The notes below the pieces were generated by a model. The model worked only from the letters and a program-made list of their open reading frames with translations, did not search any database and had not been told where the DNA came from. Shown one piece after another: positions 21,752 to 46,298 of a stretch of 64,000 bases of DNA; position 1 is the stretch's first letter; each line of letters opens with the position of its first letter. Source of the DNA: a virus; IMG/VR virus record IMGVR_UViG_3300034175_000062, positions 36,456 to 100,455 of that record. One strand, 5' to 3'. The position numbers and the translations under genes are program-made.

Positions 21752-22744
21752 TTAGAAGTACGTAATAACGATAACTGCTCCAGGACCGCCGGCGCCACCA
21801 GCTCCGGCGGCACTTCCGTTTGTAGCAGAGCCACCTCCACCACCACCTGCTGCACGTCCACCAGAGCCGCCAGCATTAGCAGCAAAAGCAAGAGCGCCAC
21901 CGCCGCCGCCTCCGCCGCCACCTGGTCCCAGCGTACCAGTAGCAGAACGACCATTACCAGCACCACCGACTGCAGTTGCATCGTATCTAGCACTGCCGGC
22001 GTTACCGGTAGCAGCATATCCGAAACCTGGACCACCTGATCCACCGCTCCATGCTAGCTGAATATCACCCCAGTATCCACCACCTGCAGCGCCTCCTGGA
22101 CCACCGTAAAAGTTCCAAGCGCCACCGCTTGCCTGACCAGTAGAGTTAGATCCACCACCAGCTCCTGGGCCGAATCCGTTTACCGTGCTACTCAGGTCTG
22201 ACTGACTATAAAGTACTCCAGCGCCTCCGCCCATAGATCCGCCAGCTCCTACAGCGCCATTAGTGCCGTTACTGCCTCCTCCAAGAAGCCCAGCACCACC
22301 GCCACCACCAATTAGTGATGCACCGACGACTGCACCAGCTCCGCCGGCACCGCCATAAGCTATCAGAACGCTACTACCGCCGAAGTTTGATCCAGCTGCG
22401 TTACTGCCGTTAGATCCATTGCCGCCATCGACTGTTGCAGCAGCGCCGCCAGCGCCACCATTACCCGCCTGGACAGATACAGTAGCGCCAAGTTCTGCCG
22501 CGTCAAATAGACGACGAAGGAAGGCGCCGCCTCCACCGCCACCACCGCCAGGTTGACGAGTGGTACCGCTACCGCGTAGTCCGCCTCCACCGCCTCCACC
22601 ACCGCCGAAAACTAGAACCTCGACGAACTTAGCGCCCGTTGGCTTAGTCCACGTTCCAGTAAATGGTGACGTGCCAGCGCCCTGTGGGACGTATGTATCT
22701 ACCTTAACTGACGCTGGTAGCTGTGAAATATCGACTGTTCTCAT
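21752..22744 (-). CDS. Glycine-rich tail fibre/adhesin
   Basis: 330 aa, about 35-40% Gly. N-terminal TFTGTWTKPTGAKFVEVLVF-type start of the glycine-rich domain (here 'SPFTGTWTKPTGAKFVEV'), then long runs of Gly and GGxG blocks like polyglycine-sandwich receptor tips of T-even adhesins. Its stop is 1 base from the DUF3307 stop (convergent). Third of three fibre genes; likely a host-receptor tip. Confidence 0.85.
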   Translation of the reverse strand: MRTVDISQLPASVKVDTYVPQGAGTSPFTGTWTKPTGAKFVEVLVFGGGGGGGGGLRGSGTTRQPGGGGGGGGAFLRRLFDAAELGATVSVQAGNGGAGGAAATVDGGNGSNGSNAAGSNFGGSSVLIAYGGAGGAGAVVGASLIGGGGGAGLLGGGSNGTNGAVGAGGSMGGGAGVLYSQSDLSSTVNGFGPGAGGGSNSTGQASGGAWNFYGGPGGAAGGGYWGDIQLAWSGGSGGPGFGYAATGNAGSARYDATAVGGAGNGRSATGTLGPGGGGGGGGGALAFAANAGGSGGRAAGGGGGGSATNGSAAGAGGAGGPGAVIVITYF

Positions 22745-22756
22745 TGTTGTATCCGA

Positions 22757-24172
22757 TTAGAAGAAGTTGAGGATAGTAACACGGCCAACGGCACCATTAC
22801 CACCAGAGCCAGTAACAGCAGCGGTAGTGTTTAAGTGAGCGCCACCGCCTCCTCCGCCACCGCCTGGAGCAGCGCCATCTGCGCCGCTGCCAGATGCTAC
22901 ACCTGCTGTGTTTGCTGCGGGACCTCCGCCACCACCCCAGCCGGCGTCAAGCGATAGAGCTACACGGTTAGCTCCTGACGCAGGGAGACTCTGATCGTCA
23001 TATATCGCTCCGTAGCTGCCGCCCCATGACATGTAGTTCATGTAGTTGATACCATCTGATCCAAGCTTGCCGCCGTTACCAGCTACGACATCAGCTTTGC
23101 CATCAGCAGCAACGCCAGCGCCTGCACCACCACCCGTTGGTGATTGATCAGTATCTCCACCAGAAATCGCTTCAGTAGCTTCAAAGTCTAAGATAGTACC
23201 AACGCCAGAGCTTCCACCCTTACCGCCCGAGAACGTGCCGAACTTGTTGGTTGGCGTGTTGATATTGATCATACCACCTCGGCCGCCTCCAGCTGAAGCA
23301 AATGATCCAAACGAGCTATTACCGCCAGCCAGAGCAGATACCGCAACAGTACTATTTGCAGTAACACCGGACGATTTAGCTCCACCTGCGCCAACAGTGA
23401 CTGTTACAGTCGGCGTTAGAAGTGCTGCAGGGATCCATGCCACAGTCTTAGCGCCACCGGCGCCACCTGCTCCGCCTTTTGCTATCGTTCCAAGAGCCTG
23501 CTTCGAGCCGCCCTGACCACCTCCACCTGCTCCATAAACGTACACCTGAACTGCCTTTAGACCAGCACGAGCGGTCCATGTGAAAGTACCTGCTGTCGTA
23601 TACGAATCAATGATGAGCGTACCGCCAGTTCCGTTAGTACCTGCAGCGCCAGCCGATCCAGTATATCCCGTGTTGCCACTAAGTGGTCGAATGGTATATC
23701 CTAGACCAGCAGCAACAGTACCAACGATAGTCACCGTAGTATCGGTCAGTGTGTAGTCAGTGGTTGGTGTTTGAATGATACCATTGAGTGTAACAATGAT
23801 ATCGTTGACAGTAAGACCAGTGATTGGTAGCGTTATCGTCTGGTTAGCAGTCGCTGTTGTAGTACCGACAACTGGTGTAAACGCGCTAGAGCCAGCGCTC
23901 GGACCAATTGGACCAACTGGACCCGGTACTGTCGATGCTGAACCAGTATAGCCAGTAGGACCGACCGGACCGTTAGGACCAGTCAGACCAGTTGGTCCAG
24001 TTAGGCCTGTCGCGCCAGCTGAACCGTTATATCCAGTTGGACCGATTGGACCAGTTGGACCCGTAGGACCGATCGGTCCAGTGGCACCTTGCGATCCTGT
24101 ATAACCATTGCCGGCTGGGCCGGTTGGTCCGCCTACAGCGCCGGCGACTTGTGATGCACTAAGAATTCTCAT
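22757..24172 (-). CDS. Collagen-like and glycine-rich tail fibre
   Basis: 471 aa in four parts: collagen-type Gly-x-y repeats (residues about 15-100, [15 protein letters not shown]); a domain [20 protein letters not shown]...[18 protein letters not shown]...YTIRPLSG also found in the next fibre gene; a short linker; and a C-terminal glycine-rich domain beginning [20 protein letters not shown]. It shares its end domain with the 21752 gene and its middle domain with 24173-26956, so the three evolved by duplication and shuffling. Confidence 0.88.
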
Positions 24173-26956
24173 TTATCGTATCCTGATTGCGATTAGTTCT
24201 GCGGCGTTGATAGTCACACCAGTTTGCGTATCGATGTAGACGAATAGACGTAGTAGCTGTCCGGCAGTCAATGCCATAACTCGTCGGTTCATCTCTCCGT
24301 GTCTTACTTGAGTGCCGACTGTAAGAGCGCCTGGTGACGTCCTCCATAGGAATGCTGGACTATCTACGTTAGAAGTGTCGATACCAATACCCCAACTGAA
24401 CTTAGCGTTACTAGCTGTTCCATCGCTGAAACGTATCTTGCCCTGGATGTCGTAGATGCCAGTCTCTGGCACCGTCCACTGGCCATTGGTAGTATTGAAC
24501 GCTCCGCCACCTGTGTTCGTTGTAACAGTATTTAGAACTACCGTATTAAAGCTTCCTGCTCCGATCGCTCCAGTAGTTGTATTCGTCGACGCGATAAGAA
24601 CTGGGAAGTTCGATGATGCATCGACACCGGCTGAACCAGTATAACCAGTCGTTCCACTGAGTGGACGAACTGTGTATGTCATACCAGCTTCTGTTGGACC
24701 AACGAGCTGAAGCGTAGATGCAATGATGCTATAGTCGGTGATTGGATTCTGAACAACACCGTTTAGCGTTACGATAACATCGTTAGCACCAAGAGTAGCA
24801 GATGGTAGGGCGATGGTGTAGTTGTTAGTACCATTTACCGAACCAGTTACAGGAACAAACTGAAGCGAACCAGCGCCCGTTCCCTGTAGTCCAGTCGGAC
24901 CAGTTGGACCAGTTGGACCAGGAACAACTGAAGCCGAGCCAGTATATCCCATCGGACCAATCGGACCAGTTGGACCAGTCGGACCCAGTGGACCAGTCGG
25001 ACCTAGTGGACCTACAGAACCAATCGAACCGTTAAAGCCGGTTGCGCCAGTTGGACCAGTAGCACCCTGAGAACCAGCGTAGCCGATCGGACCCTGAATA
25101 CCCTGAGCACCGCTTGGGCCAGTTACACCTTGAATACCCTGTGAGCCATTCGGACCTACAGGTCCTGCTGGGCCAGTTGCACCGATAGAACCAGCGTAGC
25201 CGATCGGACCTTGTGGACCGACAGGACCAATCGGGCCTTGGATACCTTGTGGACCAGCTGGACCCGTGAGACCGAGTGGACCTGTTGCGCCAATAGAACC
25301 GTTATAACCAGTGACGCCCTGCGGACCAATCGGACCAGCAGCACCAGTAATACCAATCGAACCAGTGTATCCTACAACGCCCTGTGGACCTGACGGACCG
25401 GTAAGACCTGCCGGACCAGTGAAGCCCTGCGTTCCCTGTGGTCCTGTAGCACCAATCGATCCTGTAAAGCCTGCAGTTCCTTGTGGACCAGTCGGACCAG
25501 CCGCACCAGTCGGACCTGTTAGACCCGTCGCACCAGTGACACCGATTGGTCCAGTAAGACCAGTCGAACCAGTAAATCCGCTCGGTCCTTGTGGACCAGT
25601 CAGACCTGTGAAACCAGTCGGTCCCTGAGTACCAGCCGAACCAGTATAACCAGTTACGCCGATGACGCCCTGGATACCCTGTGGACCAGTCGGACCTGTT
25701 GGTCCAGTCGTTCCAGGAATACCCTGTGGTCCTGCTGGACCAGTTGCGCCCTGTGGACCAGTCGGACCTGAGATGCTGCCTACGTTAGTAAATACGTTAC
25801 CATCATAGACGTACAGATTACCACTGATCAGATATGCGTCGCCGGTAGCGTTACCAGTTGTTGGTAGCTGAGATGAGCTAGCGAGTGTTCCAAGAATACG
25901 AACACTAGCACCAATCGAACCAGTATAACCTAGCGATCCAGTATAACCAATCGTGCCCTGAATACCCTGCGGGCCGGTCGGACCTACAGGACCCGTTACA
26001 CCCAGCGAGCCGCTGTATCCGGTTAGTCCCATGACGCCTTGTACGCCCTGTGAACCAGTATAACCGATTACGCCCTGTGGACCTACTGCGCCGATAGAGC
26101 CGTTAAAGCCGGTTGCGCCCTGAACGCCCTGTGGACCTACTGGACCAGCAGAACCGACCGAACCGTTAAAGCCTGTTGGACCGATAGGACCAGCAACACC
26201 CTGGATACCTTGAATGCCCTGTGGACCGACACTGCCGATTGAACCGTTAAAGCCAGTCGGACCTACTGGGCCAGTCGTACCTTGTGGACCCGGACCACCG
26301 ATCGAACCATTAAAGCCTGTTACGCCTTGTGGACCGACAGGACCAGCTGGACCAAGCGAACCCTGCGAGCCAGTGAAGCCGATTAGACCCTGAGCACCAA
26401 CAGGACCCTGAGCTCCGATAGGACCAGCGACACCCTGTGGTCCTTGAGGACCAACTGAACCAGTCGGACCAGTCGGACCTACAGGACCTGCTACAAGAGA
26501 TGCCGAACCGGTATAACCGATGTCACCACGCGATCCGTTGTAACCTACGCCCTGGATACCTTGAATACCCTGCGGACCTTCTGGACCCGTAGGACCGACG
26601 ATGCCCTGAGCGCCAACTGCGCCTTGCGATCCAGTGTATCCCATCGGACCAGTTGGGCCAACGATAGTAGACGCTGAACCGACATAACCGGTGTCACCCT
26701 TTGAACCAGTGTATCCCTGCGATCCGGTATAGCCAAGTGAACCAGTATAGCCGATGGTCGTAGATGCTGAACCAGTATAACCGATCGATCCAGTATAACC
26801 GAATGAACCAGTAAATCCACGCGAGCCACCGTAACCCTTAAGTTCGGTACTTACGAGCATAGAGTACTGAGATGACGCATCAACGACTACTACACTGCCT
26901 TCGACAGTATAGTTAAGCATCGTGACTATTAGCGTGTAGTCATTAGAAGAGGTCAT
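24173..26956 (-). CDS. Long collagen-like tail fibre with C1q-like end
   Basis: 927 aa. Residues 1-40 form a head that probably attaches to the virion; about 40-690 are Gly-x-y triplets (GYTGSxG, GPTGPx[15 protein letters not shown]) interrupted once by a small globular insert ([20 protein letters not shown]...[13 protein letters not shown]). Then comes the [16 protein letters not shown]...YTVRPLSG module shared with 22757-24172. The last about 135 residues ([49 protein letters not shown]) look like a C1q/TNF-type jelly roll, a trimeric receptor-binding head. The collagen parts imply a trimer. Confidence 0.9.
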
Positions 26957-33318: not shown

Positions 33319-33974
33319 TATTGTGCTAACAGATCCTTGAGGTTACTTACTGCTATTGATGCATAACGCGCATCTAGTAGCTTGATCGATGCTTTATCAG
33401 CGTTCTTCTCAGCTTCCATATCATAATAAGATACCGCTTCCCAATACATCTTCTCAGCGTCTGGTACTGGCAGTCCGATCACGTTGCCGGCTCCATCCTT
33501 AGCAGCAACCGTATGGTCGATCTTCTTACGGACATATGACGTCGGCTGACTATACTGATCGATCTCTGGGACCCAATACTTCTTGCCGTGGGGATCAAGG
33601 TTGCTGTATTCTTGGATCGTCATGATGTATGGATCATTGTACCAATCGACGCGATAGAAAGCTATCTTAGCTTTAGCAGCATCGACAGATCCATAAGCAG
33701 ACCTGATGTGATCATTGAAGACGTCATCAGACATCGGCCACTGGTAATACGGATCGACGATGTTATTGCTGAGGTATACTAGCCACACCATGTCAGGATC
33801 ACCGTAGTACTTCTCGGCTACCTGCTCTGCACGCATGCCATTCTTTACCTGATAAGGATAGAACGCATACTGATCACCGAAGACCTGGTTAAGAATAGCC
33901 ACGCGGTTAGTGATATTGATGACTTGTGAGTTACCATATTGAATGACCGGAAACTGTGCGAAGTATTTGTTCAT
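33318..33974 (-). CDS. gp53: Baseplate wedge protein, T4 gp53-like
   Basis: 218 aa. MNKYFAQFPVIQYGNSQV, then VAEKYYGDPDMVWLVYLSNNIVDPYYQWP, which is the characteristic gp53 block. gp53 joins the six wedges around the hub. Overlaps the gp27 and gp48-like genes by a single base each. Confidence 0.92.
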   Translation of the reverse strand: MNKYFAQFPVIQYGNSQVINITNRVAILNQVFGDQYAFYPYQVKNGMRAEQVAEKYYGDPDMVWLVYLSNNIVDPYYQWPMSDDVFNDHIRSAYGSVDAAKAKIAFYRVDWYNDPYIMTIQEYSNLDPHGKKYWVPEIDQYSQPTSYVRKKIDHTVAAKDGAGNVIGLPVPDAEKMYWEAVSYYDMEAEKNADKASIKLLDARYASIAVSNLKDLLAQ

Positions 33975-35053
33975 TACACTGGTCCTAGATTACGAACAGG
34001 AGGCTTAGGAATGTTATTGAAGTCTCCGTTCTTGACCGTCGATAGCAGACCGTTATCATTACCGTCTCCACCACGCCATAGTTCGATCTCTTGTAGATCG
34101 AGTGATAGGACTACTTCGATAGGCTTACCGTCATAGAAGAAGCCTGGACGTCCTGCGTTAGGAGCCCAATCAAGATCGACACGAGTGATCACACATGGCT
34201 TAAAGCGATACATAGCGTCAGCCGTCTCAGTCGGATTGAACTTTGGATGTACGATATGTGGGTACTTATAGAAGCCACCAAACGATGCTGCGAGTAGTTC
34301 TGGGTGTGAGACACGCTTGAAGGTATTAACGATATTCTGGATAGCTTCAGCCTCGCCTGCATTACGTGGATAGAGTCTCCAACCGAAGTTGTGGGTCTTA
34401 AACTGAGCACCCTGGAAAGCGATGGTCATGAATGGATTGTCTGCAATACCAAGAGACTGCTGAATGCCACCCGTGATAGTACTTGAGTCGCCTATTATGC
34501 CTGTTAGTACTTTTCGCGCGCCACCACCAAGTAGAGCATCACCAGACTTAGTCAGAATCGATCCCAGATTATCCTTGAGGGAACCTACGCCACCAGTCTT
34601 ATAACCGTCGATCATACCATTAACTGTTGAAGCCATAGCATCGGTGATAAAGTTTCCGTCCTCCATCTTATAGACGAGCTGTGACGTATCCTTCAGGTTG
34701 CCCGGCATCGGTAGTGCGATGTAGTCGGTAATACCAGCTGATGTAGCACCCTCGAACATGCTAGGGCGACGATACTCTTCGAATCCAAATGACATGTAGT
34801 ACTTTGGACGATCCGTTGGAAAGCTAAGGATGCTGGTCTTCTTAACCGCGTCGATCTTCTTCGATGGATCTGTCGCTTCAACACGAGGTCGAGTTCTATT
34901 AGGATCACGGTTGTCTGTTACTGCGATCTTTGACGGGCTGCCGGTGAACGTTGTAAGATCACCATAGGCTTTCTTCAGGGTCGCGCCGGCGCTCGTGGCA
35001 AATGACTGTCCGCCACTGATGCCGTTCTTGATGCTATCTAAAATACCAGCCAT
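33974..35053 (-). CDS. gp48: Baseplate tail tube cap, T4 gp48-like
   Basis: 359 aa. The C-terminal half (NPFMTIAFQGAQFKTHNFGW, RNAGEAEAIQNIVNTFKRVSHPEL) is the tube-cap signature; a Gly-rich N-terminal part precedes it. gp48 sits on the hub and starts tube polymerisation. First gene of the baseplate operon, with a late promoter-like CCTAAATA at 35086-35093. Confidence 0.9.
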   Translation of the reverse strand: MAGILDSIKNGISGGQSFATSAGATLKKAYGDLTTFTGSPSKIAVTDNRDPNRTRPRVEATDPSKKIDAVKKTSILSFPTDRPKYYMSFGFEEYRRPSMFEGATSAGITDYIALPMPGNLKDTSQLVYKMEDGNFITDAMASTVNGMIDGYKTGGVGSLKDNLGSILTKSGDALLGGGARKVLTGIIGDSSTITGGIQQSLGIADNPFMTIAFQGAQFKTHNFGWRLYPRNAGEAEAIQNIVNTFKRVSHPELLAASFGGFYKYPHIVHPKFNPTETADAMYRFKPCVITRVDLDWAPNAGRPGFFYDGKPIEVVLSLDLQEIELWRGGDGNDNGLLSTVKNGDFNNIPKPPVRNLGPV

Positions 35054-36193: not shown

Positions 36194-36768
36194 TGCCGAG
36201 TTTCAACATCAATCAGTTCAGGAGCGTTATTCACGATAACAATGAACTCCTTGGCACGAATAAGTTCCTAGTGCAGTTCCCAGAACCAGCTGGAGCAGTC
36301 CTTCAGGATGCACGCACACTGAGCTTCTACTGTAAGACGGCTACTCTACCAGGTATCGGTCTTCTAACATCTGATACAGCTCAGTATGGTGTTGGACCTA
36401 TCGAGCGTAAGCCTTATGCTACAGCAGTCAACGACTGTCTATTCCAGTTCTATGTGGATGGTGACGGTAAGATTCGTAAGTGGCTGACTGGTTGGATGAA
36501 GCTGATCACTAATCCGTATACTAATCGTGGTATGAGCTCTAAGAGCGCACAGGGATTGGTTCCGTACGAGTTCCAATACAAGGATCAGTATGCAGTCGAT
36601 ATCACAGTCACTGTGTTCGATAGTGAAGGCAAGGAACAGATCAAGACTACGCTCATTGAGGCGTATCCAAACTACATCGGTGATACCTCACTCGATTGGC
36701 AAGAGAAGAACAATCTAATGACGGTACCGGTGGCATTCACCTACCGCGATTGGTATGAAAGTTTATAA
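36193..36768 (+). CDS. gp19: Tail tube protein, T4 gp19-like
   Basis: 191 aa. LSFYCKTATLPGIGLLTSDT, YGVGPIERKPYATAVNDCLF, the DGKIRKWLTGWMKLI block, and SLDWQEKNNLMTVPVAFTYRDWY at the end match the T4-like tube family. It could be the major tube or a related baseplate-proximal tube protein; position beside gp26-like favours the latter slightly. Confidence 0.85.
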   Translation: MPSFNINQFRSVIHDNNELLGTNKFLVQFPEPAGAVLQDARTLSFYCKTATLPGIGLLTSDTAQYGVGPIERKPYATAVNDCLFQFYVDGDGKIRKWLTGWMKLITNPYTNRGMSSKSAQGLVPYEFQYKDQYAVDITVTVFDSEGKEQIKTTLIEAYPNYIGDTSLDWQEKNNLMTVPVAFTYRDWYESL

Positions 36769-39665: not shown

Positions 39666-40619
39666 TTAGTCTTCAGCCAATTTCTGGAAGAAGCTCATGC
39701 TGTCATCCGCATCGTCATCGCCACCACCAAACGGAGTTGGTGCAGCCGACTTAAAGCTTGAAGACGGACCAGCCGCGAAAGGCAGATCATCATCGTCATC
39801 CATAGCAGTGCGGTTAGCCTGACGCTGAGCCTGTTCACCACGGCTATGTGCCGGAGTGCGCTCATCACCAAGACCAAGAACCTGATCGAGCTTCTTCTTC
39901 AGCTCATCGTAGCTCTTGTAGTTCTCAGGAGCGAGGATAGGAGCGAGTGGGTGACACTGCTTCCAGACTGCCTCGATCTGGTCATCGTCGTTATAGACGG
40001 CCGATGGGTTATCAAACTCAGACTTATCGTAGTTACGATAGCCTTCGACCTGACGGATCTTGAGCTTGAAGTTTGCACCATCCCAGAAGTCATAAGGGTT
40101 CATTGGCTCTTCGTCAGGGAACTCAGGGTTCATCTTTTCGTTGAGCTTGTTGAAGATCTTCTTGCCGAACTTGTACTTGAAGACCTTACCCTCGTTCTCA
40201 GGGTTGGCAGTGTCCTGGACGACCAGGATGTTAGACACGAAGTGAAGACGACGCTTCTGCTTACGGGCCTGCTTACGCTCAGGACTATTGTCATCCTGAG
40301 ATACGTTCCACAGCTTACCGTTGAACTGAGCGACAGGATCTTCCTGTCCGATTGAAGTTAGGGAGTTTTCGATGTACCACTTACCGCCAGGGCCTTGGAA
40401 GCCGTGATCCCAGTAGCGTACATAAGGAACTTCTTCACCCGCGACCTGGGGAAGGAAACGAATAATCGCAAAACCGTTGCCTGCTTTATCAACGGTGGGA
40501 GCCCAAAAGGTCTCATCCTTGGTACGCTCGTTGCCCTTAGTGAGCTTGTCGAGGTCCTGGGAAAGCTTATCAAAGCTTGACTTACGATTCTTCTTTAGAT
40601 CAGCAAAATTGTTTGCCAT
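39666..40619 (-). CDS. gp32: Single-stranded DNA-binding protein, T4 gp32-like
   Basis: 317 aa. LAST-like KKNRKSS near the N-terminus, an OB-fold core (FAIIRFLPQVAGEEVPYVRY), and an acidic end (MDDDDDLPFAAG, DDADDSMSFFQKLAED) that in T4 contacts replication and recombination proteins. The T4 zinc site (H-x3-C...C-x2-C) is missing: DHGFQGPGGKWYIENSLTS has no cysteine. Has a strong sigma70-type promoter at 40728-40756 and a terminator. Confidence 0.93.
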   Translation of the reverse strand: MANNFADLKKNRKSSFDKLSQDLDKLTKGNERTKDETFWAPTVDKAGNGFAIIRFLPQVAGEEVPYVRYWDHGFQGPGGKWYIENSLTSIGQEDPVAQFNGKLWNVSQDDNSPERKQARKQKRRLHFVSNILVVQDTANPENEGKVFKYKFGKKIFNKLNEKMNPEFPDEEPMNPYDFWDGANFKLKIRQVEGYRNYDKSEFDNPSAVYNDDDQIEAVWKQCHPLAPILAPENYKSYDELKKKLDQVLGLGDERTPAHSRGEQAQRQANRTAMDDDDDLPFAAGPSSSFKSAAPTPFGGGDDDADDSMSFFQKLAED

Positions 40620-40727: not shown

Positions 40728-40756
40728 TTTATATCATAGTAATGTTGAAATGTCAA
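40728..40756 (-). promoter_or_regulatory. Strong promoter of gp32 (also late-type core)
   Basis: TTGACA, 17 bp, TATAAA; the -10 reads TATAAATA, so it also matches the late element. Fits the high and prolonged expression of gp32. Confidence 0.8.
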
Positions 40757-42162
40757 CCAACTTTTACACGAGCTCGAATTTCTTCAAAGTTCGTGCGGTT
40801 GAACATCTCTCCATTACGATAACGAAGCTTAAGCTCAGAAGTCATGATGAACTCGCCAGTCTCATGAGCGATAGCCTGGTGTGCCTCAAGATCTTCGAGA
40901 CGCACAGTGTTATACTCGCCCTTATACTTGACTAGTTCGAGACGTCCGCGCTTAGACTTCTTTCCACTGTCGGTGATTGGGTCCTTGTAGACGTCGACCC
41001 ATTCACCATCGATATTAGCAGCTGAGCACTTCATAGCGAACTTCGAATCATCGCGATTGTTGATCTGAAGTAGTGCACCACCCTGACCGAAAGTGATATT
41101 GTCGGTCGAGAAGCCAGCCAGCTGCGCACTGAAGATAATAGAACGAATGCTCTGGTGATTGATACCATCACCCTGAAGCACTCGGCAGGTATTGAGGACC
41201 TTGTAACCCTTCTCGTTCATAGTAGAACCGAAGTACAGGTCTAGAAGCTGAAGCACCTTAACTACGATAACTGCGGGATCACCTGAGTCAGGACGTACCA
41301 CGAGGGTGCAGCCAGTGTCGAGAATATCCTGCTTCAGTTCAGTACCAAAGAGCTTGATGGCGTTAAAGATGTCGTAGCTATCAGAGACGATAGAAACGAT
41401 CTTGCCAGGAGCTCCATAGGTACGGATCATATTGCGATAAGAGTCCACCTCGCCATCACGAGTCCAACTCGTTACAGTTGAATGCTCCATAGCAGGTACG
41501 CTAAAGGCAGGGACATCGTCAGCATCATAGTACTCCATAGCGTATTCAATAGCCGTAAGAGTGTCGGTTCCCATGAAGACGGCGATGTGTGCCAGGCCAC
41601 CAATTCCAGCAGATTCGAAGCTACTAACACCACGAGCACCAAAGTCATGTAGCTTAAAATCGATAAGAGACTCATCGCCAGTGTCCTTCAGTCCCTTGAG
41701 GATGATCTGCTTACTGTAGTAGCTGTTCGAAGCAACAGTGGTAGGATACCAGATGCCGCGAAGGAGCAAAGTCTCGAGATACGACGGCAACCACCAGCAC
41801 TCTGGATCGGTATTCTTGATCCAGCAAAGGATCTGCTGAGTGCCGATAACAGTACCCTCGTCGAGCGCATGGATCTCAACAGGGAGAATACCGTCGTGCT
41901 TCTCGAGGATATACATCCAACCTTCACGGTTAAATGGTTCGCCATGAGCCAACGCGACCTTCTCAGCTCGGTTGATCATCTTCAGCGTAACACGCTTCAT
42001 GACGTATTCTTGGATCAGCATCTGAGTGCCGAGGAAGACCAGCTTATCATACATACCGCCACGACTCTCGATGTACGAGAATACGTACTCGGTCTTTGGC
42101 GGATACTGATTGTACTGCGAGAGCTTGTAGCTGTCGGTATTAAGGCAAATGTTGTATTCCAC
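40753..42162 (-). CDS. nadV: Nicotinamide phosphoribosyltransferase
   Basis: 469 aa, normal family length. NTDSYKLSQYNQYPP (Asp10, Tyr12), HDFGARGVSS (172-181), catalytic His227 in AMEHSTVTSW, VVRPDSGDP (Arg290, Asp292), LQGDGIN and FSTDNITFGQGG are all present. Makes NMN from nicotinamide and PRPP. The next gene upstream makes NAD from NMN, so the pair forms a complete salvage route in the infected cell. Confidence 0.96.
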   Translation of the reverse strand: MEYNICLNTDSYKLSQYNQYPPKTEYVFSYIESRGGMYDKLVFLGTQMLIQEYVMKRVTLKMINRAEKVALAHGEPFNREGWMYILEKHDGILPVEIHALDEGTVIGTQQILCWIKNTDPECWWLPSYLETLLLRGIWYPTTVASNSYYSKQIILKGLKDTGDESLIDFKLHDFGARGVSSFESAGIGGLAHIAVFMGTDTLTAIEYAMEYYDADDVPAFSVPAMEHSTVTSWTRDGEVDSYRNMIRTYGAPGKIVSIVSDSYDIFNAIKLFGTELKQDILDTGCTLVVRPDSGDPAVIVVKVLQLLDLYFGSTMNEKGYKVLNTCRVLQGDGINHQSIRSIIFSAQLAGFSTDNITFGQGGALLQINNRDDSKFAMKCSAANIDGEWVDVYKDPITDSGKKSKRGRLELVKYKGEYNTVRLEDLEAHQAIAHETGEFIMTSELKLRYRNGEMFNRTNFEEIRARVKVG

Positions 42163-42205
42163 GATAAGTTCCTTATTCGTGATTAAAAGGTAGAGCGCCT
42201 ATCGC

Positions 42206-43258
42206 TTACCATGCAGTTGGGAGAGGGATCCAGTGCGTGATGATGTCGTAGTGATCATCAAACAGAAGTTCTTTCTTGACTTCGTTGTATGGAACCCACT
42301 TGGCTCGCTTAGCATCATCAGCTCCCTTAACTTTGGGGAACTTGCCGTTGACTCGATGAAGGACGATACGTCCAGCATGAGTGATCGACCTGCCAAGCAG
42401 AGAACGATTCTTATGAGAGAAGGTCTTGATCTCTACGATACTACCACGGATGACCTTTGCAGGAACATCGATCATAGTCTCTTCATCGAGCTCTCGAACG
42501 ATACCATCAACTGGTTCATCGTCCTTTACAGTATCGAAGTATCCACCAGGTAGAGCCCAGAGGTCCTTACCAGGATGCGACTTACGCTGGATCAGTAAGA
42601 TATGACCATCACATGTGACGACCGCATCTACCGTGACTGCAAGCATCGGATATGGGAGGTTTGCATACTGCTTGCGACGGTTCTCTACAACCCGCTTGCC
42701 TTCCATGATGTATTCGAATGCTTCTGTCTTACGGAAGTCATCCATCCACTCAAGGACGGTGCCAGGTACACAACCAACAAGGAAGTTGCGGTTGTAGTTA
42801 CGCTGGAAGTAGAGCTCACGGATCATAGTCGCATCGAGCACTTGAGCCAGCGGAACATTCACGTCATCCCATTGAGGGAACATACGCAGATATTCTGCAG
42901 TCTCAGCGTCTTTGTGATGACCAATAAGCACGATAGCGTCGTTAGCATTAGCATGCTTAGCTACGTTCTGTTGGATACGAGTGATCCAACCATCATAGTC
43001 GTAGAGGGTGTCGATAACGTATTCGACTACGTACTCAGCCCCGGTTCGCTTAGCTAGATCAGCTAGGATAGGCTTGAGCATTAGGGCTCGTTCCGCGGCA
43101 GTCCATGGATTCTTATGGGTGCGAGGCTGGAAGGCGGAGCCGATGTTTACTACGACTGTATCAGCAATCATACCAGCTTCGAAGAGCAGTGCAGTATGAG
43201 CGTCGTGTAGACCTTGAAAACGTCCGATGACTACAGACGTGTCGTATTTCTTATGCAT
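42206..43258 (-). CDS. nadM: NMN adenylyltransferase-Nudix fusion (NadM type)
   Basis: 350 aa. Residues 1-180 are a nucleotidyltransferase with GRFQGLHDAH (12-21, the GRFQPxHxGH site), WTAAERALML and LIGHHKD; residues about 205-345 are a Nudix domain with GGYFDTVKDDEPVDGIVREL-DEET (Nudix box). Converts NMN to NAD; the Nudix half probably hydrolyses ADP-ribose, whose ribose-phosphate can feed PRPP. Has a late-type GATAAATA at 43317-43324. Confidence 0.95.
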   Translation of the reverse strand: MHKKYDTSVVIGRFQGLHDAHTALLFEAGMIADTVVVNIGSAFQPRTHKNPWTAAERALMLKPILADLAKRTGAEYVVEYVIDTLYDYDGWITRIQQNVAKHANANDAIVLIGHHKDAETAEYLRMFPQWDDVNVPLAQVLDATMIRELYFQRNYNRNFLVGCVPGTVLEWMDDFRKTEAFEYIMEGKRVVENRRKQYANLPYPMLAVTVDAVVTCDGHILLIQRKSHPGKDLWALPGGYFDTVKDDEPVDGIVRELDEETMIDVPAKVIRGSIVEIKTFSHKNRSLLGRSITHAGRIVLHRVNGKFPKVKGADDAKRAKWVPYNEVKKELLFDDHYDIITHWIPLPTAW

Positions 43259-43756: not shown

Positions 43757-44335
43757 TTAACTAAATTTGTCAACTACAATTTTCTTAAACTTTGGAAGTT
43801 CGTAAGTCATGAAGGGCTGGTACTTGCGAACCTTCATAGCGACTTCCTGCCAGACTGGATCGTACTCCATGGCCTTCGACCATTTATTGTAACAACCAGT
43901 AAGATGGACTAAGATGACGAGTGTTTCGATCGAGACTACACCACGAAGGTACAGCTTCAGGAGCGGTGGATGACCACCATTCTCTAGTCTGAAGTTTGTG
44001 TCGAAATCATCGTCAAGTTGTCCCAATTCATTACTAAACGAATAGGTGAGGGACTGGTTTCGCTTGAGCCAGCTGTTGTACGCGACTTCAGCTGCGTCAG
44101 AATTAACGAGCTCTCCCACCCAGACTTGGGCACCGCGCTCAACGATATTGGCAAGTATGAAAGAGCGAGGGTCTTTAAGCTTTGCAAGCTTGTCAAAGTA
44201 GTATCTGTCGTTTCGGCCTTCGAAGGCGCGGGTAGAAGCAGATACTTTACCTCCGTATCGGAAGTAGTCATACGAGTCCTTGGTGAAGTGCTGTTTGAGA
44301 GCTAGATAATAGACGTATAGATCAAACGATTTCAT
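43757..44335 (-). CDS. gp59: Helicase loader, T4 gp59-like
   Basis: 192 aa. YVYYLALKQHFTKDSYDYFRY, RNDRYYFDKLAKLKDPRSFI and WVGELVNSDAAEVAYNSWLK match gp59, which loads the gp41 helicase on gp32-coated forks; LYLRGVVSIETLVILVHLTG also corresponds to a conserved helix. Close to gp32 in the same strand. Confidence 0.9.
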   Translation of the reverse strand: MKSFDLYVYYLALKQHFTKDSYDYFRYGGKVSASTRAFEGRNDRYYFDKLAKLKDPRSFILANIVERGAQVWVGELVNSDAAEVAYNSWLKRNQSLTYSFSNELGQLDDDFDTNFRLENGGHPPLLKLYLRGVVSIETLVILVHLTGCYNKWSKAMEYDPVWQEVAMKVRKYQPFMTYELPKFKKIVVDKFS

Positions 44336-44347
44336 GGACCAACTATC

Positions 44348-44569
44348 TTAGATGGGAAGCCTCGCTGAAGGCTTGAGGATGTTGAGGTTCTCAGCTTCGA
44401 TCTGAATCTTAGCTTTAAGGACCGCGTCTTTCTTGATGAGCGACGCGGCCGTTTCAACATCAATGTTATGATCTGCGCAGTAGTGGCAGATGGCGTCGAT
44501 AATATCTACCGTGCCGCCGTGCGTTAGCTTTTCGATTTCTTTAGCGAAATCAACATTGAACTTCGACAA
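44348..44569 (-). CDS. gp33: Late transcription coactivator, T4 gp33-like
   Basis: 73 aa. SKFNVDFAKEIEKLTHGG, IIDAICHYCADHNIDVETAA, and LKAKIQIEAENLNIL match the gp33 family, which bridges RNA polymerase with the sliding clamp at late promoters. This supports the late promoter calls in the window. Its sigma partner gp55 is not in the window. Confidence 0.85.
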   Translation of the reverse strand: MSKFNVDFAKEIEKLTHGGTVDIIDAICHYCADHNIDVETAASLIKKDAVLKAKIQIEAENLNILKPSARLPI

Positions 44570-45083: not shown

Positions 45084-45155
45084 TGGAGCGCCTGAAGGGA
45101 TTCGAACCCTTATCTCTATGCTTAGAAGGCAATGGCCCATTCCCTTGGCAGGCGC
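45084..45155 (-). tRNA. tRNA-Arg(UCU)-like gene with a short D-arm region
   Basis: 72 bases. Acceptor arms GCGCCTG/CAGGCGC pair over 7 bp, with encoded TCCA end; T-arm AAGGG-TTCGAAT-CCCTT is canonical; the anticodon loop CTTCTAA gives UCU (reads AGA, AGG). The D-arm region is short (about 3-bp stem) and the anticodon stem pairs for only three bases, and the discriminator is T, so it may be degenerate. Sits downstream of an AATAAATA late element (45171-45178) in the stretch with the tmRNA. Confidence 0.65.
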
Positions 45156-45644: not shown

Positions 45645-45945
45645 GAAGTGGGCCCGTGCTGTTGCTAGGTGGAACCCGTACCCCAGAAACGATTACGCGG
45701 CTAGCGCATACTCGTTAGCAAGGACATCATTGTCGTTTGCATTTAGTTGTGTAGCCCGGTCGTGGGCCAAGCGATCATCTACGTATAGTCTTCAGAAGCA
45801 ATCGATGCTGCGTCGCCCCCATCAAAGCCCGCCTGCAAGTAATCCAACACGACATCACGTGTAAAACGAAATCTATCCGCATGTGGATCGGGCTATGGTG
45901 GAGGCGCCGGGTGCTGCCCCCGGGTCTTACCGCCTATCATTCTAC
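45645..45945 (-). ncRNA. ssrA: Permuted two-piece tmRNA (phage-encoded)
   Basis: Read on the minus strand, the acceptor piece comes first and ends GGCGCCTCCACCA at 45895, with a T-arm CCGGG-GGCAGCA-CCCGG. After a 74-base spacer the coding piece begins GGGGGCG at 45820. GGGGGCG pairs with CGCCTCC over 7 bp with G3-U70, the alanyl-tRNA synthetase signal, followed by A73-CCA. The coding piece carries the tag ANDNDVLANEYALAA-stop (45740-45693). The spacer is flanked by AGCCCG/CGGGCT, which would pair and bring the ends together for cutting. This order (acceptor before coding) is the permuted alphaproteobacterial form. It would rescue stalled ribosomes and tag peptides for ClpXP. Outer ends are estimates. 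Confidence 0.95.
45693..45740 (-). other. tmRNA proteolysis-tag reading frame
   Basis: Codons from GCA at 45740 to TAA at 45693 encode ANDNDVLANEYALAA. The ANDN start and the ALAA end are standard for alphaproteobacterial tags; the NDVLANEY middle may differ from the host's own. Confidence 0.95.
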
Positions 45946-45964
45946 ATCAAGCAATGATAATGTA

Positions 45965-45993
45965 TTTATACCCTAAGTTGGTACAAATGTCAA
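45965..45993 (-). promoter_or_regulatory. Strong tmRNA promoter
   Basis: TTGACA, 17 bp, TATAAA. The -10 region reads TATAAATAC, so it matches both sigma70 and T4-late elements; it lies just before the tmRNA acceptor piece. Confidence 0.8.
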
Positions 45994-46298
45994 GGCTTTT
46001 TTTTATCGAGTAGAGACTTTTGCCTGCTCTCCCACTGCGACTTCTTATGATTGCAGTTACCGCAGAGCAGCTGGAAGTTCTCTTCAGTATCGGTACCACC
46101 CAGGCATCGGGCGACCGTATGATCGAGCGTTGCCTTATCTTTCCAGTTGTCGGTGAACTGAAGGTTGTGGGTGACCTTACCACAGAAGGGATTACGACAG
46201 CGTGGATCTTTGCGCCATTCGGCTAGCCTGAAGACTAGCCGATGGTAATTCTTCATTGAGGACCTACGATGGCCCTCGTTCTCATAGATTGTTGGCAT
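45990..46298 (-). CDS. HNH endonuclease
   Basis: Up to 102 aa; an internal ATG at 46256 (MKNYHRLVFRLAEWRK) is a possible start. CRNPFCGK and LLCGNCNHKKSQ provide the two zinc knuckles around LDHTVARCLGG, the HNH active-site block. Free-standing HNH genes in T4-like phages are often homing endonucleases; here it lies next to the tmRNA promoter, with the tmRNA on its downstream side. Confidence 0.88.
   Translation of the reverse strand: MPTIYENEGHRRSSMKNYHRLVFRLAEWRKDPRCRNPFCGKVTHNLQFTDNWKDKATLDHTVARCLGGTDTEENFQLLCGNCNHKKSQWESRQKSLLDKKKP

Follow-up and report, generated by a model that had tools for sequence, protein, structure and literature searches.

A circularly permuted tmRNA gene of alphaproteobacterial type in a T4-like phage, and its association with endonuclease genes

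We report a tmRNA gene on a 64,000-nucleotide stretch of viral DNA (the window; positions 36,456 to 100,455 of IMG/VR record IMGVR_UViG_3300034175_000062, a contig of 100,455 bases that is probably incomplete). tmRNA releases stalled ribosomes and marks their incomplete products for degradation. Judged by covariance matches and pairing, positions 45993-45647 of the minus strand are a complete, circularly permuted tmRNA gene of the alphaproteobacterial type, carried by a T4-like phage. The gene is another case of a type of phage tmRNA already described in 2022, and it is a well-supported addition to the T4-like phages with their own ribosome-rescue RNA. What looks new is the presence of endonuclease genes and small open reading frames (ORFs) beside or inside phage permuted tmRNA genes. 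The comparison of relatives raises a testable question, namely why phages keep a tmRNA and whether homing endonucleases spread it.

Gene layout and selection on pairing

A covariance search with the alpha_tmRNA model had been set beforehand as a test of the gene. In this search (cmscan), positions 45997-45647 matched the entire model (RF01849, model positions 1-355 of 355) with 101.1 bits against a gathering threshold of 50 (E = 1.9e-26). The tmRNA_permuted model (RF04321) matched 45958-45693 with 80.7 bits (gathering threshold 47), likewise on the minus strand. ARAGORN gave no call for this gene, a miss which indicates that annotation tools can overlook phage tmRNAs.

Read from 5' to 3', the promoter is followed by the 5' strand of P2, GAC, the T arm, the 3' strand of the acceptor stem, A73, CCA and a spacer, and after the spacer come the 5' strand of the acceptor stem, the tag frame and a 3' hairpin. 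The acceptor/T-arm piece lies 5' of the coding piece, and the two are joined by a 7-bp acceptor stem, CGCCTCC/GGGGGCG, with 7/7 pairs. According to the RF04321 and RF01849 alignments, the acceptor piece (P2 5' strand, T arm, acceptor 3' strand and CCA) spans 45896-45958, its 5' end being approximate. It includes the T stem CCGGG/CCCGG (45923-45919/45911-45907), the acceptor 3' strand CGCCTCC (45906-45900), A73 (45899) and an encoded CCA (45898-45896). The T loop, GGCAGCA, is unlike the usual tRNA loop but resembles GGCGGUA, which is the consensus in the alphaproteobacterial model. A spacer of 75 nt (45821-45895), predicted to be removed, leads to the coding piece (45647-45820, the RF01849 match reaching 45647). 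The latter comprises the acceptor 5' strand GGGGGCG (45820-45814), the tag frame ANDNDVLANEYALAA with its stop codon TAA (45693-45740) and the 3' hairpin GGGTTC...GGGCCC (45650-45677), which encloses the conserved ACCTAGCAACAG. All of these elements are on the minus strand. An earlier note on this DNA had given the coordinates, the acceptor-then-coding order, the tag and the G3-U70 pair, all of which were right when compared with the sequence and the Rfam alignments. The T stem, the acceptor stem and a helix of the spacer ends (AGCCCG/CGGGCU) form in the RNA fold of the window, in which the spacer ends AGCCCG...CGGGCT prolong the acceptor helix; the fold energy of the whole gene was not beyond that of shuffled sequences (z = -1.2).

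Selection on pairing was assessed in 16 phage sequences (the window, 11 IMG/VR relatives, DLP_6, Phosso, HTVC008M and Melnitz). The T and acceptor stems held standard pairs in 192/192 cells, at loci that came from Rfam matches and, for most rows, in the fully paired frame that the parser picked. Two-sided changes were present in 9 of the 12 stem pairs, and the covariation score was 0.566, compared to 0.143 in shuffles (0/500) and at most 0.10 with slid partners. The G3-U70 pair was invariant (16/16). In the closest relative, G001 (gp32 94% identical), the acceptor stem (GGGCCCG/CGGGTCC) and the T stem (GCGAG/CTCGC) are differently built and all paired, and its 3' hairpin, with arms GGGTCTC/GAGACCC, retains both pairing and loop. 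Another phage permuted tmRNA, at locus L088 (G006 136015-136390), has a T stem of apparently 6 bp (GCGGAG/CTCCGC).

Phage context and relation to other phage tmRNAs

Gene content identifies the phage of the window as T4-like. The marker of this kinship is the gp32 ssDNA-binding protein (39666-40619; PHROG 224, 7e-112), and the helicase loader gp59 (43757-44335; PHROG 269, 2e-53) and the late co-activator gp33 (44348-44569; PHROG 254, 1e-13) are also encoded on the minus strand; a tail tube cap gene is located at 33974-35053. The gene order tmRNA, gp33, gp59, gp32 matches that of Melnitz. The 147.3-kb linear record of Pelagibacter phage HTVC008M opens with gp59 and has its tmRNA at 145.2 kb. 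Nucleotide searches of known phages gave no near relative of the window, only a short match to Sinorhizobium phage Phosso. An SmpB gene was detected in none of G000, G002, G005, G006, Melnitz and HTVC008M. The host is probably an alphaproteobacterium.

The earlier note had presumed that permuted tmRNAs were unrecorded in T4-like phages, which does not hold in view of Melnitz (2022), HTVC008M, DLP_6 and many IMG/VR contigs. The two-piece tmRNA of Melnitz, related to those of alphaproteobacteria, shares an operon with the late co-activator, and 53 unique two-piece tmRNAs, 50 of them aquatic, were counted in phage genomes (PMC9004378). The 2025 tmRNA database contains 79 phage tmRNAs, all forms included (PMC11915505). 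A permuted tmRNA match was present in 15 of 50 gp32-relative records of IMG/VR, in 14 of them above threshold, and in 5/5 relatives with a gp32 at least 70% identical and a contig reaching the region (G001, G002, G004, G005 and G006). Additionally, the pattern of the alphaproteobacterial T arm and acceptor was found in at least 119 viral stretches, with the 5' partner strand and a tag in at least 99.

Like the phage of the window, Melnitz (MZ577097; PMC9004378) is a T4-like phage with a permuted, alphaproteobacterial-type tmRNA upstream of gp33-gp59-gp32, a TTGACA/TATAAATA promoter and a tag, ANDNYVPVDYALAA, that ends in ALAA. It differs in its marine OM43-clade host, which was placed in the Gammaproteobacteria (PMC9004378), and in its spacer, which measures 142 nt and has an open small reading frame, whereas that of the window has 75 nt. 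A glutamine riboswitch was reported for Melnitz (PMC9004378), whereas the window gave no riboswitch match at the gathering threshold, and an HNH gene lies upstream of the window tmRNA. HTVC008M resembles the window as a T4-like phage with a permuted tmRNA (RF04321, 90.6 bits) near gp59/gp32, but its tag is ANFNEYALAA and its spacer has 49 nt. Stenotrophomonas phage DLP_6 (L119; KU682439.2 102838-103059) carries a permuted tmRNA as well (RF04321, 136.8 bits), and its host genus is gammaproteobacterial. As the tmRNA of Stenotrophomonas itself is presumably of the one-piece form, DLP_6 would be a Melnitz-like case. A permuted tmRNA that is unannotated in the record was found in the 469-kb phage Phosso (L120; PV764938.1 349596-350198), with a 410-nt spacer and the tag ANDNVSTKVALAA.

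Acceptor block, spacer cargo and neighbouring endonucleases

The 31-nt T-arm/acceptor segment of the window is identical (31/31) in 29 bacterial genomes, mostly of Afipia, Bradyrhizobium and Xanthobacteraceae, and tmRNAs of Nitrobacteraceae/Xanthobacteraceae agree with its T arm, acceptor and spacer ends at up to 98% over 42 nt. In about half of those 29 genomes, the spacer also begins with xAGCCCG and has the corresponding end; other phages among the matches listed have different spacer ends, often TAAACAC...GTGTTTATGATG. The sequence suggests a Hyphomicrobiales host for the window phage. Host tmRNAs of the Afipia/Bradyrhizobium type (RF01849) have the same architecture, the identical 31-nt segment and similar spacer ends (AAGCCCG...CGGGTT), but their tag is ANDNYAPVAQAA and not the phage ANDNDVLANEYALAA, and their flanks are unrelated.

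In the permuted gene the T arm, both acceptor strands and the spacer are contiguous, and therefore one recombination event can swap the T arm and both acceptor strands together. The alignment of L096 with L100 reads as a clear case of such a block exchange: the flanks are near-identical (79/80 before and 165/168 after the region), whereas the block differs (T arm 8/17, acceptor 11/14, spacer 28 vs. 63 nt). The pairs L180/L214 and L217/L231 are partly similar to this pattern. Between the window and G001, the T arm and acceptor are 71% identical, compared to 83-85% in the flanks, and the spacers have 75 and 15 nt; here, block replacement is suggestive only. Taken by these alignments, the T-arm/acceptor/spacer block appears to be exchangeable as a unit.

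Spacer lengths range from 13 to 590 nt among the gp32 relatives. In G002 (IMGVR_UViG_3300013296_000013), a spacer of about 590 nt contains a 196-aa ORF resembling GIY-YIG homing endonucleases (L127:1986-2576, G002 ~73985-74575, minus strand), with matches to PHROG 314 (4e-7) and to a homing endonuclease of Vibrio phage MZH0603 (2e-11). The interrupted tmRNA, below the alpha_tmRNA threshold with 41.5 bits, consists of an acceptor piece AGGAG-TTCGAAT-CTCCT-CGCCTAC-A-CCA and a coding piece with GTGGGCG and the tag ANDNSVLAQDFALAA, and it retains 7/7 acceptor pairs with a new U2-A71. An assembly artefact is an unlikely source of the insertion, since the acceptor and the 5' strand pair 7/7 and share the matching U2-A71 change. 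Among 17 relatives of the G002 ORF in IMG/VR, 13 loci (9/12 distinct) are directly beside a permuted tmRNA.

Further, among 53 spacers measuring 80 nt or more, 8 had a Shine-Dalgarno-led ORF over at least 60% of their length, where 0.29 would be expected from shuffles. Small spacer ORFs led by a Shine-Dalgarno sequence were found at L186, L189, L192, L196, L197, L199, L211, L137, L151 and L136, and some spacer ORFs stop at a TGA within the conserved TATGATGGGG that precedes the 5' piece. The spacer ORFs of L186 and L192 are homologous, and the substitutions between them fall preferentially at third codon positions (42 vs. 23 and 14); their products are related, small and membrane-like. Known phages contained no free-standing homologues of the L192/L186 ORF, and the ORFs of L197 and L196 had no clear relationship. 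A spacer ORF in the window tmRNA was considered and rejected, as no Shine-Dalgarno-led ORF is present there.

Beside the window tmRNA, an HNH endonuclease gene (45990-46298, minus strand; Pfam HNH, 8e-8) overlaps with its end the -35 box of the tmRNA promoter. An HNH neighbour is located at the same position in G001 (88% identity), G002 (61%) and G005 (38%), and none was detected at the G004 and G006 loci. The gene was not found outside the phage clade of the window in searches with narrow DNA patterns; that of IMG/VR gave only G001, owing to the narrowness of the back-translated patterns. From its position, the HNH gene is a possible homing partner of the tmRNA.

In the open-licence PMC literature, we found no report of a spacer endonuclease, tmRNA-adjacent endonucleases, spacer ORFs or block exchange. 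A tRNA-Ala and a repeat element are reported in permuted spacers, and no endonuclease in such a spacer is reported in the passages of the same source (PMC11915505). The LAGLIDADG endonucleases in tmRNA genes with group I introns (PMC11915505) resemble the case of G002 in that the endonuclease gene sits in a segment lost on maturation. G002 differs from them in having a GIY-YIG ORF in the spacer of a permuted gene, the removal of which would occur by tRNA processing and not by splicing. Tentatively, we put forward as a possibility that phage permuted tmRNA genes are mobile modules, marked by block exchange that leaves the pairing intact, a spacer niche for cargo and endonuclease-driven spread among phages. 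The drivers might be the GIY-YIG genes in nine lineages and the HNH gene in the clade of the window, where an HNH+tmRNA module may have had its block replaced from a Hyphomicrobiales host. If homing spreads tmRNA, this would account for its patchy distribution among phages, and the discarded spacer of a permuted RNA gene would be, like introns and inteins, a place where selfish genes can reside without harm.

Promoter, tag and proposed function

Upstream of the gene, a -35 box of exact consensus, TTGACA (45988-45993), stands 17 nt from a -10 box TATAAA(TA) (45963-45970), which equals the exact T4-late core TATAAATA; both boxes are on the minus strand and were judged by eye, and a promoter scan requiring T at position 6 of the -10 box gave no match. 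Whereas G001, G002, G005, G006, Melnitz and the L087/L096 clade retain TTGACA, the -10 box drifts among relatives between TATAAATA, TATAAGTA and TATAATAG. The gp32 gene of the window has the same promoter type, TTGACATTT...TATAAATA. A host sigma70 promoter would be the best account of the conserved TTGACA and the varying -10 box. T4 late promoters are used by gp55/gp33-bound RNA polymerase and have no -35 box. The earlier note had described a promoter of the gene's own that also fits the T4 late consensus; the promoter stands, and so does the string match, with three TATAAATA in 64 kb and 0.8 expected, but late use is uncertain, the sigma70 -35 box being conserved. Some additional late use is possible, since TATAAATA is the T4 late core and gp33 is present. 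We consider it unlikely that a T4-type late promoter drives most of the expression of the tmRNA, for the freeing of ribosomes late in infection. While the exact TATAAATA is present and the phage encodes gp33, the exact TTGACA at 17 nt is conserved as the -10 box drifts to TATAAGTA/TATAATAG, only three TATAAATA sites occur in 64 kb, and the Melnitz tmRNA was put after an early promoter by its authors (PMC9004378).

The tag ANDNDVLANEYALAA ends in ALAA, followed by the stop codon, and both the frame and the ALAA are retained across the phage relatives. This ending is a common ClpXP degradation signal. None of the GTDB species genomes scanned contained the ten-residue tag start ANDNDVLANE, and in IMG/VR it occurred in G001 only. 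Therefore, the tag is, by these searches, specific to the phage group of the window. A redirection of the tagged peptides, as suggested in the earlier note, is doubtful: the start of the tag is phage-specific, but the tag ends in the standard ALAA degron.

We propose that the window gene is very probably a functional phage permuted tmRNA that rescues ribosomes with the host's SmpB, AlaRS, RNase P and ClpXP. This reading is favored because of the covariance matches, the full pairing with two-sided changes, the kept ALAA tag and the synteny with Melnitz, and because all five relatives with a gp32 at least 70% identical that reach the region carry a tmRNA and SmpB is absent from the phages searched. 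Host RNA polymerase would transcribe the tmRNA from the TTGACA/TATAAA promoter, and host RNase P and 3' nucleases would excise the 75-nt spacer, with the two pieces staying associated through the acceptor and P2 helices. The RNA would then be charged by host AlaRS via G3-U70, and host SmpB would deliver it to ribosomes stuck on broken messages. The tmRNA would free the ribosome and append ANDNDVLANEYALAA, the ALAA end of which would send the product to ClpXP. The likely benefit would be that ribosomes are kept free during the breakdown of host DNA and mRNA and the silencing of the host ssrA, which we infer to be why the phage needs its own copy. The association with endonucleases allows that the tmRNA persists partly as a passenger.

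That the tmRNA is chiefly a target for nearby homing endonucleases, or their passenger (HNH in the window, GIY-YIG in relatives), seems rather doubtful to us. The tmRNA genes of co-infecting phages would be cut, repair would copy the endonuclease together with the flanking tmRNA, and the tmRNA would stay functional since cutting selects a conserved target. Such a history would fit the G002 spacer filled by a GIY-YIG ORF, the 13/17 loci of its relatives (9/12 distinct) that adjoin a permuted tmRNA, the HNH gene abutting the tmRNA promoter in the window, G001, G002 and G005, and the exchange between L096 and L100 around the T arm, acceptor and spacer. However, the narrow DNA-pattern search did not find the HNH gene outside the clade of the window, and intact tags with ALAA ends are unexpected of a pure passenger. 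Another reading is an RNA that sequesters host SmpB or ribosomes as a decoy or inhibitor, for which PMC11915505 and PMC4131195 cite a precedent in the tRNA-like-domain-only tmRNA of mycobacteriophage DS6A. This is very improbable for the window gene, since a decoy would need neither its full coding piece, ALAA tag and stop codon nor its conserved 3' hairpin. We give hardly any credence to a non-functional relic of a host ssrA, left by imprecise recombination: the similarity of the T arm, acceptor and spacer ends to Nitrobacteraceae/Xanthobacteraceae tmRNAs would fit this, but the flanks and the tag are phage-lineage sequence (the host tag being ANDNYAPVAQAA), and pairing is complete, with compensatory changes and synteny across a wide range of phages.

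Other features of the window were also observed. Downstream of the tmRNA, 45087-45155 (minus strand) gave a weak tRNA match (32.2 bits, anticodon UCU) and no ARAGORN call; G002 has a tRNA-Arg(TCT) call at the corresponding place, and the match in the window is possibly a decaying tRNA. Between gp59 and gp32, 40753-43258 (minus strand) encode a nicotinamide phosphoribosyltransferase and an NMN adenylyltransferase-like/Nudix fusion, which by their annotation are a possible NAD+ salvage pair. At 21752-26956 (minus strand) lie long glycine-rich and collagen-like (GPTGP repeat) ORFs, which are probably tail fibres.
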